Assembly (NCBI RefSeq): GCF_014193695.1
Contig: NZ_JACHZR010000007.1
Span: forward strand, 1 to 64,000
Reading direction: 5' to 3'
Length of the DNA: 64,000 bases
Source: Rhizobium sp. BK316
Lineage (GTDB): Bacteria; Pseudomonadota; Alphaproteobacteria; Rhizobiales; Rhizobiaceae
In this document: positions 2,569 through 46,370 of the stretch, piece by piece
Layout: every line of letters begins with the position of its first letter
Numbering within the stretch: position 1 is the stretch's first letter
Program-made: the position numbers and the translations under genes
The notes under the pieces: model-generated
What the model saw: the letters and a program-made list of their open reading frames with translations, nothing else
Told to the model about the DNA's origin: nothing
Database searches by the model: none

Positions 2569-3662
2569 GCCTTGGCTCCCCGCTTTCCGGACCCAAGCAC
2601 GGTCGCTGCGTTGGAATCGAGCGGCCAGCGCGAACGCGGCTGCACGTCGAGATCGTCAGGCGCAACACCCTTCGCCATACGTTCTAACCCGGCCCAGGCG
2701 ATCATCACGGCATTGTCGGTGCAAAGCCGAAGCGGCGGCGCGATGAAGCGGAAGCCGTTCTTATCGCAAAGCGTCTGCAGCGTGCTGCGGATTTCCAGAT
2801 TGGCGGCGACGCCGCCAGCCACCACCAGCGCCGGCTTTTCGGAAAGGTTCGGGAATTCCGTTTTGAACCGCTGCAGGCCACGGCCGATACGATCCTTCAT
2901 CGTACGGGAAATCGCTTTTTGGAATGAGGCACAGATATCGGCGACATCCTGATCCGTCAGTGGCGCAATCCCAATTGCCGCCTGCCGCACGGCCGTTTTA
3001 AGGCCGGAGAACGAAAAGTCGAGCCGCGCCTCGCCCACCAGCGGTCGAGGGAATTTGAATCGATCGGCATTGCCGCCCTTCGCCATTCGCTCCACCGCCG
3101 GTCCACCTGGATAGGGAAGGCCGAGCAGCTTTGCCGTCTTGTCGAAGGCTTCGCCCAGCGCATCGTCGATCGTCGTGCCCCAGCGCTCATACTCGCCGAT
3201 GCCGCGCACGAGGATGAGCTGCGTGTGACCGCCGGAGACGAGCAGCATCAGATAAGGAAAGGAAAGACCATCCGTCAGCCGCGCCGTCAGTGCGTGGCCT
3301 TCCAGATGGTTGACGGCATAGAGTGGCTTTCCAGCGGCCTTGGCGATCGCCTTGCCGGTCATCAGCCCCACCAACAAACCACCGATCAGTCCGGGACCCG
3401 AAGTCGCGGCGATCGCATCGACATCGGAGAGCGACACATTGGCGCGCTTCAACGCCTCGTCGATCAACTCATCCAGCGCTTCCACATGGGCGCGCGCTGC
3501 AATCTCCGGCACCACGCCACCATAGGCGCTATGCTCGTCCAGCTGGGAAAGAACGATATCCGATAGTATATTGGAGCGACCTTCCGCATCGCGCTCGACG
3601 ACGGCAGCAGCGGTTTCGTCGCAGCTTGTCTCGATACCGAGGATGCGCAGAAAGGGAGCCAT
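2565..3662 (-). CDS. tsaD: tRNA N6-adenosine threonylcarbamoyltransferase
   Basis: 365 residues. TsaD (formerly Gcp) transfers threonylcarbamoyl to A37 of tRNAs that read ANN codons. The ASKHA-fold start [14 protein letters not shown], the metal-binding H119-x3-H123 (NHLEGH), LVSGGHTQL and the C-terminal [12 protein letters not shown] are all present. It is the first gene of the minus-strand cluster and diverges from hemC across about 70 bases. MtaB, which methylthiolates the TsaD product, is encoded near 45-46 kb in the same window. Confidence 0.97.
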
Positions 3663-43454: not shown

Positions 43455-43513
43455 GCTTCTTCAAACCTGCTTTTTTGCAATGCATGCAAGCCATCAACGG
43501 CTAATCTGTGGCA

Positions 43514-45079
43514 TCATTGGCCAATGCCGGCAATGGCCTGCGCAAAATCCTCGGCCTCGAACGGTTCGAGATCGTCGACCCCTTCCCCGACGCCGATGAA
43601 ATAGACCGGCAGCTTATGCTTGGCGGAGATCGCCACCAGGATGCCGCCGCGCGCCGTGCCGTCAAGCTTGGTCATGATCAGCCCGCTGACACCGGCGACA
43701 TTGCGGAAGATCTCAACCTGATTGAGCGCATTCTGACCCGTCGTCGCATCGAGTGTCTGGAGCACGGTATGCGGCGCATCGGGATCGAGCTTACCGAGCA
43801 CGCGCACGATCTTTTCCAGCTCGGCCATCAGCTCCGCCTTGTTCTGCAGGCGGCCCGCCGTATCAATGATCAGCACATCGCACTTCTTGGCTTTCGCCTG
43901 CTCGAAAGCGTCATAGGCAAGCCCCGCCGCATCCGCGCCGAGCTTGGTGCCGATGAATTCGGATTTGGTGCGATCGGCCCAGATCTTCAACTGCTCGATG
44001 GCGGCAGCGCGGAACGTATCGCCAGCCGCCACCATCACCTTGAGTCCGGCGCCGGAAAGCTTGGCTGCCAGCTTGCCGATCGTTGTCGTCTTGCCGGTAC
44101 CATTAACACCGACGACGAGAATGACATGCGGCTTGTGCGAGAGATCGAGCTGCAGCGGCTTGGCAACCGGCTTCAATACCTTGGCGATTTCACTCGCCAT
44201 GATGCGGCTGACATCCTCACCGGTCACATCCTTGCCGTAACGCTCGGAGGCGAGTGTATCGGTAACACGCATCGCCGTCTCGACACCAAGATCGGCCTGG
44301 ATCAGCAAGTCCTCGAGATCCTGCAGCGTGTCGTCATCCAGCTTGCGCTTGGTGAAGAGCGCGGCGATCTGGCCGGTAAGCTGAGAAGAGGTGCGCGCGA
44401 GACCATTGCGCAGGCGCTGGAACCAGGAAAGCCTCGGCTGCGGCGCGACCACGGGTTCGGGTTCGGCTTCCGGTCCGGTGGCAAAGCCTCTGGGAAGGAT
44501 GGGATTCGGCGCCGATTCGGCGGGGGTGACACCCCCCTCTGTCCTGCCGGATATCTCCCCCACAAGGGGGGAGATTGGCAAGGATTGAGAATCCTGCACT
44601 ACCTTAGCTGGAATTTCCTGGGCGTCACGAGTTGGAATCTCTTCCGGAAATGCCTCGGTTGGCTCGACTCTGCCTTCCTCTCTCACGGCAGCGTCATCCT
44701 CCAAACGATCTCCCTCCTTGTGGGGGAGATGTCCCGAAGGGACAGAGGGGGGTGCTGCCGCAGCGTCGTCTGCACTCGCTTCCGCCTCGGCTTCCAACAG
44801 CGACAAAGGGACAACGCCCATGTCGCCCAGATCATCGGCAGTAGGGAGTAATTCGGACCGGGCTTCAACCGGTTCTTGCTCCGCGAGAGCTTCCTCGATA
44901 TCCGCCGCCGGACCGCCGGCCGTATCCATTTCCTCAGCTAGGACCGGATCAGCAGCAACCGGCAGATCTTCGTCGCGCGAGCGCGGCTCCAATTCCTTCT
45001 CCACGGCTTCCGGCACGAGCTCTTCAGCCGGCTTGTCCTTGCCGAAAGTGAAGACCTTTTTGATGAAACTGAGTGCCAT
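43514..45079 (-). CDS. ftsY: Signal recognition particle receptor FtsY
   Basis: 521 residues. The first ~215 residues are acidic and Ala/Glu-rich (A domain). The NG domain follows: G324-VNGTGKTTTIGKLA (G1), GDTFRAAA (G2), DTAGRLQNKAELM (G3) and TKLDGTARGG (G4). FtsY docks Ffh-bound ribosomes at the membrane. Two inverted copies of a rhizobial palindromic repeat are translated within the A domain, at about residues 110-126 and 166-185. The NG domain is unaffected. mtaB and dapF lie just upstream. Confidence 0.96.
   Translation of the reverse strand: MALSFIKKVFTFGKDKPAEELVPEAVEKELEPRSRDEDLPVAADPVLAEEMDTAGGPAADIEEALAEQEPVEARSELLPTADDLGDMGVVPLSLLEAEAEASADDAAAAPPSVPSGHLPHKEGDRLEDDAAVREEGRVEPTEAFPEEIPTRDAQEIPAKVVQDSQSLPISPLVGEISGRTEGGVTPAESAPNPILPRGFATGPEAEPEPVVAPQPRLSWFQRLRNGLARTSSQLTGQIAALFTKRKLDDDTLQDLEDLLIQADLGVETAMRVTDTLASERYGKDVTGEDVSRIMASEIAKVLKPVAKPLQLDLSHKPHVILVVGVNGTGKTTTIGKLAAKLSGAGLKVMVAAGDTFRAAAIEQLKIWADRTKSEFIGTKLGADAAGLAYDAFEQAKAKKCDVLIIDTAGRLQNKAELMAELEKIVRVLGKLDPDAPHTVLQTLDATTGQNALNQVEIFRNVAGVSGLIMTKLDGTARGGILVAISAKHKLPVYFIGVGEGVDDLEPFEAEDFAQAIAGIGQ
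44525..44580 (+). repeat. Palindromic repeat, copy 1, inside ftsY
   Basis: The core ACCCCCCTCTGTCC is followed by an internal stem-loop (ATCTCCC...GGGAGAT, around CCCACAAGGG). It reads in frame as part of FtsY (SPLVGEISGRTEGGV on the minus strand). It is homologous to the inverted copy at 44704-44757. Confidence 0.8.
44704..44757 (-). repeat. Palindromic repeat, copy 2 (inverted), inside ftsY
   Basis: This is the reverse complement of copy 1 with few differences, including one base of length around TGCCGG versus CTTCGGG. It is translated in FtsY as PPSVPSGHLPHKEGDRL. Copies 1 and 2 can pair with each other across about 125 bases in the ftsY message. Confidence 0.8.
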
Positions 45080-45095
45080 GAAGCTGTCCGTGAAG

Positions 45096-46370
45096 TCAGG
45101 CCGCCGCGGCAGCCGTCAATTGCATGTCGAGATGCTTGCCATTGTGGCCAGTGATCGTCGCTTCGACGATATCGCGCGGACGAAGACCGGGCACCGCGAC
45201 AAGCGTGAAGTTTTCCGTATGGGCAAGACCGTTATTTTCCACCAGCAGCCATTGCCGCGTTCCGACCATCTTGTCCAGATGGCGCTGGTGCAGCATCTGT
45301 CCAGTGGCACGGAGGCAAGCGGCGCGATCCTTGATGAGCGAGCGATCGAGCTGTGGCATGCGCGCGGCGGGCGTGCCGGGGCGCGGGCTATAGGGGAAGA
45401 CGTGCAGATGCGCGATGTCAGCCTCTTCCGCCAGCCGCACCGCATTTTCGAACATCTCTGCGGTCTCTGTCGGGAAACCGGCGATCATGTCCGCACCAAA
45501 ACTCATCTCCGGCCGCAGCCGACGCACGTCTTCGATGAATCGCAGGGCGTCAGCCCGCAGATGCCGGCGTTTCATGCGCTTGAGGATCATGTCGTCGCCA
45601 TGTTGCAGCGATAGGTGCAGATGCGGCATGAAGCGCTGCTCGTCGGCGATCAGATCCATGAGATGGCGATCGGCCTCGATGCTGTCGATGGAAGACAGCC
45701 GCAGGCGGCGGATATCGGGCACCTGCTTCAGCAGCGTTTTTGCCAGCAGACCGAGCGTCGGCTGGCCGGGAAGATCGTCGCCGTAACTCGTGGCGTCGAC
45801 GCCGGTCAGCACGATTTCGCGATAGCCGCTTTCGACGAGGTTGCGCGCCTGATCGACCACCGCCCCCATCGGCACGGAACGCGAATTGCCCCGGCCATAG
45901 GGAATGATGCAGAAAGTGCAGCGATGGTCGCAGCCGTTCTGCACCTGGATGAAGGCGCGCACATGGCCGTCGATATGCCTGACCATCTGCGGCGCGGTGT
46001 GGCGCACACTCATGATGTCGTTGACGCGCAGCTTCTCTTCCGCCGAAACGCCGAAATCCGGAAGCGCGCTATAAGAGGCAGCCTTCAGCTTCTCCTCATT
46101 GCCGAGCACGGCATCGACCTCGGCCATTTCGGCAAAGGTCTGCTTTTCCGTCTGCGCCGCACAGCCGGTGACGATGATGCGGGCATGCGGATTGTCGCGG
46201 CGCGCACGGCGGATCGCCTGGCGGGCCTGGCGCACGGCTTCGCCGGTCACGGCACAGGTATTGACCAGGATGGCGTTGTTGAGCCCGGCTGCTTCCGCCT
46301 GCGATCTCATCACTTCGGATTCATAAGTATTGAGACGACAGCCGAAGGTGATGACCTCGACGCCGCTCAC
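45096..46370 (-). CDS. mtaB: tRNA (t6A37)-methylthiotransferase
   Basis: 424 residues. The MiaB-like layout is complete. An N-terminal UPF0004 domain has three cysteines ([30 protein letters not shown]). A radical-SAM cluster [15 protein letters not shown] and a C-terminal TRAM domain follow. MtaB converts t6A37, made with TsaD, to ms2t6A37. It overlaps dapF by 4 bases and ends 16 bases before ftsY. Confidence 0.95.

Follow-up and report, generated by a model that had tools for sequence, protein, structure and literature searches.

The ftsY gene of Rhizobium sp. BK316, encoding the SRP receptor, contains two short, nearly identical units in opposite orientation, both translated as part of the protein. 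How did they come to lie in this gene, and are they kept for what their RNA or peptide does or simply tolerated? We addressed these questions in a stretch of 64,000 nts (the window) and by comparison with related genomes.

A paired repeat in the A domain of FtsY

The first-pass annotation had described two inverted copies of a palindromic repeat in the acidic A domain of ftsY, both translated without loss of frame. This was confirmed by the ORF, by a repeat search and by translation of the minus strand, which yields the peptides already proposed, PPSVPSGHLPHKEGD(RL) and PISPLVGEISGRTEGG(V). The units are located where they had been placed (44525-44580 and 44704-44757), but their exact ends are better drawn as in Table 1. 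The inverted pair thus stands, but not as two insertions: we read the units as arms of one element.

The A domain covers approximately residues 1-213 and the NG domain residues 219-516, the segment matched to solved FtsY by phmmer. Acidic, repetitive sequence makes up the A domain, which is also variable. In a weak structure model built from 18 sequences (mean pLDDT 51.7), pLDDT was below 50 over residues 1-213 and the element carried neither helix nor strand. The repeat search paired 44543-44575 with 44708-44740 (88% complementary) and 44530-44544 with 44740-44754 (100% complementary). Within the window, the outer end CACCCCCCTCTGTC occurs without mismatch only at the two ftsY places; allowing up to 2 mismatches, 3 sites were found versus 0.36 expected, a number reached in 1 of 100 shuffles. 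The loop of the first arm (CCCTTCGGGA) has 1 base more than that of the common form, and the peptide therefore begins in frame a and goes on in frame b. A search of Rfam over 43500-45200 gave sub-threshold matches only.

Table 1. Coordinates in the window of ftsY and of the parts of its repeat element
Feature	Position	Strand	Product or basis
ftsY (SRP receptor)	43514..45079	minus	521 aa; ORF, phmmer to solved FtsY, structure model
Composite paired-arm repeat element, 225 nt	44530..44754	minus	translated as FtsY residues ~109-183 (75 codons)
First arm in gene sense	44708..44754	minus	PPSVPSGHLPHKEGD
Element interior, 128 nt	44580..44707	minus	acidic peptide
Second arm in gene sense	44530..44579	minus	PISPLVGEISGRTEGG

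Spread, host genes and replacement of the element

The first-pass annotation had named a lack of other genomic copies as a refuting outcome, but copies of the units do exist elsewhere in the genome. A search with one ftsY unit gave 21 matches (the query's own place counted), and copies outside ftsY reach 94% identity across 54 bases and 98% across 46 bases. Grouped at 320 bp, these form 12 clusters including ftsY, 8 of them inverted pairs (7 FR and 1 FFR). In 11 other genomes of the genus, 80 stretches picked around listed, well-scoring copies, a sample biased to well-kept elements, contained 86 elements: 71 FR, 1 FRFR, 1 FFR and 13 single arms. FR elements measure 120-210 nt, chiefly 150-152, 171-178 and 187 nt. 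The general form is that of two hairpin-capable arms of about 50 nt, inverted and flanking a variable interior, mostly 150-190 nt in total. Since 71 of the 86 sampled elements and 8 of the 12 own clusters are inverted pairs, the ftsY units are the two arms of one element of ordinary architecture with a longer interior. Opposite orientation is the usual arrangement of the arms. The ftsY interior is dissimilar, as judged by eye, to those of intergenic copies, and the pair (225 nt) exceeds the usual length, so that a single insertion as the source of the whole 225 nt is an inference.

At E 1e-6 or better, the unit was detected in 34 of 61 searched genomes: 34 of the 37 of the genus (own included) and none of the 24 from other families of the order. 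Translated queries against 297 genomes of the family matched 87 in frame a, 104 in frame b and 105 in frame c, the frame-a query reaching 40 of 109 genera. At the top of the listed genomes, G132 and G223 gave more than 500 first-look hits each, which are candidates rather than confirmed copies. In a plasmid collection, 184 records carry the element, chiefly from Rhizobium (75) and Sinorhizobium (70). For the best match in 60 listed of these 184 records, 50 have no annotated feature beneath, in a gene table that is incomplete, and 10 are unannotated.

Among 80 named FtsY relatives fetched, 77 were scored together with the own sequence on a tree of the NG region (78 rows). The rows dropped were L047 (element by eye), L101 (none by eye) and L084 (cut); L050, with an N in its right arm, was scored AA by hand, and row L095 is labelled as an Arenimonas MAG. 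The element (A) is present in 45 of the 78 FtsY, 44 with both arms and 1 with a single arm. Another 5 (L036, L038, L039, L040 and L087) carry in the same region a subfamily B with an arm close to ATACCCCCCCTACCCTGCCGGGCGTCCCCCCCACAGGTGGGGGGACT, and one carries A nested in B (L080), giving 51 with A, B or both. The peptides are absent in the other 27, contrary to the refuting case set by the first-pass annotation, in which FtsY of all Rhizobiaceae would carry them. L059 encodes one 609-aa FtsY with B and A at two places. On the tree, presence changed at least 10 times and the four states 15 times. Rhizobium wenxiniae (L092) is without the element while the two rows nearest to it have it, and the FtsY of L082 retains a trace resembling an element end (TEGG). 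Gains and losses are not separable with certainty; the occurrence of half elements and short remnants makes loss plausible, perhaps by way of the hairpin between the arms, as the first-pass annotation suggested.

Three of the 8 paired copies of the own genome lie inside core genes with one open frame, namely ftsY, ribD and cobN. Across the family, 8 internal sites occur among the matches listed: FtsY, RibD, three in CobN, and one each in a CobG-like protein, an ABC protein and an XDH-like protein. RibD and CobN were each found in 60 of 60 genomes of the genus. The Pfam RibD_C domain is interrupted by the element in relatives. Of 29 distinct RibD genes read by eye (L272 left out), 18 have both arms (419-500 aa, stop-to-stop), 1 a shortened right arm and 2 one arm (405 aa), 1 was not classed and 7 are without element (374-378 aa, one 418, stop-to-stop). 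Alignment of ribD DNA with and without the element makes its boundaries visible; no clean, unambiguous target-site duplication was observed in it. Element-less forms bear GAGGGGGGT or a similar sequence at the site, either the target as it was before insertion or a scar left by deletion. The own ribD (L213) has nearly 60 extra bases within the right arm, and L258, L261, L265, L267 and L274 have up to about 15 extra codons within the left arm, the frame being kept in all.

In CobN of the relative L151 (1390 aa), a single Pfam CobN match spans two elements. Its phmmer alignment to the solved CobN 9uk9 is interrupted twice, at query 197-286 and 825-880, leaving three segments, and the elements, at 217-277 and 828-879, coincide with these breaks. 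The remaining sites come from other genera of the family, the third CobN site being seen in L357, L358, L359 and L361. CobG-like NIR_SIR proteins carry the element in L374, between both domains, and also in L364 and L357. In the double ABC ATPase L367 it lies between the ATP-binding domains. In the XDH-like protein L356, which may represent two fused genes, it separates Fer2_2 from the domain that follows. A UvrB (L190) has the right arm only, past the last domain, a possible extra site outside the count of 8.

At CobN, the same protein sites hold different repeats in different species. Repeat classes were set by simple text patterns, two AE rows being read as family E. At site 1, the 30 loci of the genus comprise 14 with A, 4 with a family D, 2 with a family E, 4 empty and 6 unscored; at site 2, 13 have A, 7 a family C, 2 D, 2 are empty and 6 unscored. 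Families C and D are likewise built of inverted arms, and the arms of E match weakly (score 15 versus 38 for C and 31 for D). Family C (ACCCCTCCCCAACCCCTCCCCACAAGGGGGAGGGACT) lies in frame at site 2 of the own cobN (L212, ~3520-3660) and forms nine further clusters in the own genome. C and A may be distantly related, since they have a CCCCACAAGGGGG core in common. Family D is in frame in CobN of L228, L230, L231, L243 and L245; of 389 loci, 11 contain its core ACCTTCTCCCCGNNGGGGAGAAGG, three of them as an inverted pair, two of these overlapping the same place. A possible extension, which we hold to be rather doubtful, is that several palindromic families of Rhizobiaceae would be translatable cassettes repeatedly entering and replacing one another at a few permissive sites. 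The linkers of CobN, RibD and FtsY would then evolve by exchange of mobile-DNA modules, and a resident palindrome might make its site receptive to a later one, through recombination or palindrome-targeted insertion.

Frame use and maintenance of the insert

Of the 162 arms sampled, 156 are stop-free in all six frames, and the consensus arm likewise; when the consensus was shuffled 2000 times with dinucleotides preserved, 18.5% of the shuffles were so. For whole FR elements (n=71), six frames are open in 1, five in 9, four in 19, three in 25 and two or fewer in 17. At all 8 internal sites found, the right arm is read as PISPLVGEMSGRTEGG or near; for the left arm, PPSVLPDISPTRGEI is the usual reading. 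The frame used gives a Cys- and Trp-free peptide rich in Pro, Ser, Gly and Glu; Cys or Trp are encoded in the other frames of the arm. Left-arm exceptions are most Rhizobium FtsY, which change frame in the loop, and a copy in the CobN ORF L361 (residues 247-303), with the left arm in frame c and the right arm in frame a.

If the three frames were equally likely, all eight sites would fall in the same one with a probability of about (1/3)^7 = 5e-4, a value that ignores the choice of candidates. Four of the 8 sites (third CobN, CobG-like, ABC and XDH-like) came from the frame-a query. Frames b and c were searched likewise, and from a subset of the long ORFs among the matches listed, together with ORFs of another set, 18 in these two frames were scanned with Pfam. 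None of the 18 had the element between or after domains: 16 were domainless and 2 had it upstream of a domain (L309 and L312, scanned alongside, proved to be frame a). A separate Pfam scan covered 27 ORFs of a 54-row list. The use of one frame presumably reflects selection against the peptides of the others.

We consider it very probable that the ftsY insert is a MITE-like translatable repeat, tolerated at disordered or linker sites and acting like the Rickettsia palindromic elements. This reading draws on the dispersed pairs, the in-frame presence in core genes, presence, absence and replacement among relatives, the frame use and the finding of no covariation between arms (see below). The element is a dispersed repeat that probably once moved by transposition. 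With stop-free arms, a copy landing in a gene could be read through, given a suitable length and interior. Copies would be retained wherever a protein can accommodate a flexible insert, as in the FtsY A domain, the insert sites of RibD and CobN and domain linkers, and nearly always in the single frame giving a Cys- and Trp-free peptide. The peptide is probably made and little harmful, and in-gene copies would then drift, shrink, get lost or be replaced by other repeats.

Alternatively, the inverted arms could be kept because a long hairpin in the ftsY mRNA, placed after the part for the membrane-binding N terminus and before that for the NG domain, delays translation or changes the stability of the message. 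The hairpin put forward by the first-pass annotation is indeed predicted: RNA of 44505-44780 (minus strand) folds at -138 kcal/mol with the arms paired to each other, versus a shuffle mean of -101.5 (sd 5.3, z -6.9), and 0 of 200 shuffles were as low. Moreover, among 47 FtsY arm pairs, within-species matches exceeded random cross-species pairings in 2000 of 2000 permutations, a comparison that ignores relatedness and mixes subfamilies. This advantage is attributable to relatedness, as it vanishes when each arm is set against that of the nearest relative (18 better, 21 worse and 3 ties of 42), and no covariation was found. Maintenance of the hairpin is further contradicted by 27 of the 78 FtsY genes, which have no such arm-arm element, by single ftsY arms that fold barely better than shuffles (z -0.5 and -1.4), and by the presence of the same arm pairs in ribD and cobN. 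A role of the ftsY hairpin thus appears very unlikely.

The FtsY A domain has a role in membrane contact, and the element peptide, present in 45 of the 78 FtsY, could be a useful part of the protein under selection, through contact with the membrane or SecY or as a spacer of given length. We regard this as improbable as well. Mismatches of ftsY arms to the consensus at codon positions 1, 2 and 3 were.106/.059/.071 for the left arm and.066/.085/.080 for the right arm; the corresponding right-arm places of 69 intergenic elements gave.071/.027/.056. In this crude test on related sequences, ftsY showed no third-position excess. Close relatives are without the peptide or have subfamily B in FtsY, and the same peptide is found in unrelated enzymes. 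The peptide is thus without sign of purifying selection, and the data fit a tolerated insert as far as such coarse tests go. The acidic, repetitive and variable nature of the A domain could also suggest ordinary low-complexity sequence, arisen by chance or by local duplication in ftsY. This is refuted, to near certainty, by the near-identical copies outside ftsY, the unit in 34 of 61 genomes and the same DNA in ribD and cobN.

Known palindromic repeats and gene annotation

Palindromes that encode parts of proteins have been described chiefly in Rickettsia and Wolbachia, and intragenic REPs in several other bacteria. The likeness to Rickettsia palindromic elements (RPEs) noted at first inspection holds as a mode of action, a dispersed palindrome in frame in core genes. 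RPEs are palindromic repeats of about 100-150 bp inside ORFs, including core genes, whose frame they leave intact (PMC3767692, PMC10969869). Different RPE groups lie at or near one place in some orthologues, a pattern similar to that at the CobN sites and described for RPE-4, RPE-6 and RPE-7 of R. japonica (PMC3767692); hotspots or a common origin have been proposed (PMC3767692, PMC10969869). The Rhizobium element is likewise palindromic and in frame, inside ftsY, ribD and cobN of the own genome and at further sites in relatives. However, RPE hosts are obligate intracellular Rickettsia whereas the present family has many free-living, plant-associated members. The element here has two arms, with most sampled copies outside genes, and is likened to RPEs by behaviour.

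Intragenic GTAG/CGTC REPs are short palindromes, often dimers, translated within ORFs of several bacteria, and different REPs occupy roughly one site in Xanthomonas recB (PMC3733652). As in the intragenic dimers that this source describes, the arms of the Rhizobium element are short, palindromic and translated; unlike REPs, the GTAG/CGTC end tag is missing, by eye, from both ends and both strands of the arm. Among rhizobia, the REP literature includes work on Bradyrhizobium and a remark on rhizobial GTAG-3 elements. RIMEs are palindromic repeats dispersed through the genomes of rhizobia and have been annotated in Sinorhizobium meliloti (PMC2573895). Compared by description, the element resembles them as a dispersed palindromic rhizobial repeat and may belong to the RIME family, but RIMEs are described as intergenic while the element also lies inside genes. 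RIME1, of about 108 bp with two large palindromes, would fit in form. The element is MITE-like in its terminal inverted arms, dispersed copies and presence/absence variation; the ribD alignment showed no unambiguous target duplication.

Among the listed results of searches in open-licence PMC papers, none described repeats of this sort inserted in frame into genes of Rhizobiaceae. Bacteria of the Rhizobium family appear to extend working proteins with peptides that stem from mobile-looking DNA, in a manner similar to Rickettsia. Here this behaviour is seen in core genes throughout a family in which many species are sequenced and genetics is well developed, and presence, absence and replacement are visible between relatives. 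This makes it testable how mobile-looking DNA turns into protein: whether the peptide is made, at what cost, and why in one frame.

For annotation, element peptides (PPSVLPDISPTRGEI, SPLVGEMSGRTEGG) can make unrelated proteins match each other when homologues are sought, and copies between genes yield long spurious ORFs. L286 (1019 aa), L290 (475 aa) and L173 (411 aa) were rejected as genes, having no Pfam match and lying over the gap that separates two genes. Read by eye and with no database match, L286 DNA comprises a HutH-like end and an N-formylglutamate-deformylase-like start. The element recurs in seemingly the same gap in L173, L286, L287, L290, L291 and L325, where long spurious ORFs arise. 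Internal sites were also rejected where the element lies upstream of every domain, taken as 5′ flank: the SLT_2 transglycosylases L136, L152, L183 and L210, DUF1697 (L192), DUF2277 (L166), Tex (L302, L309), ExoVII (L381), permeases (L292, L315), NMT1 (L371) and DNA ligase (L288). In several genomes (L010, L136, L152, L183 and L210), the element is found immediately 5′ of a lytic transglycosylase gene, probably as its 5′ flank.
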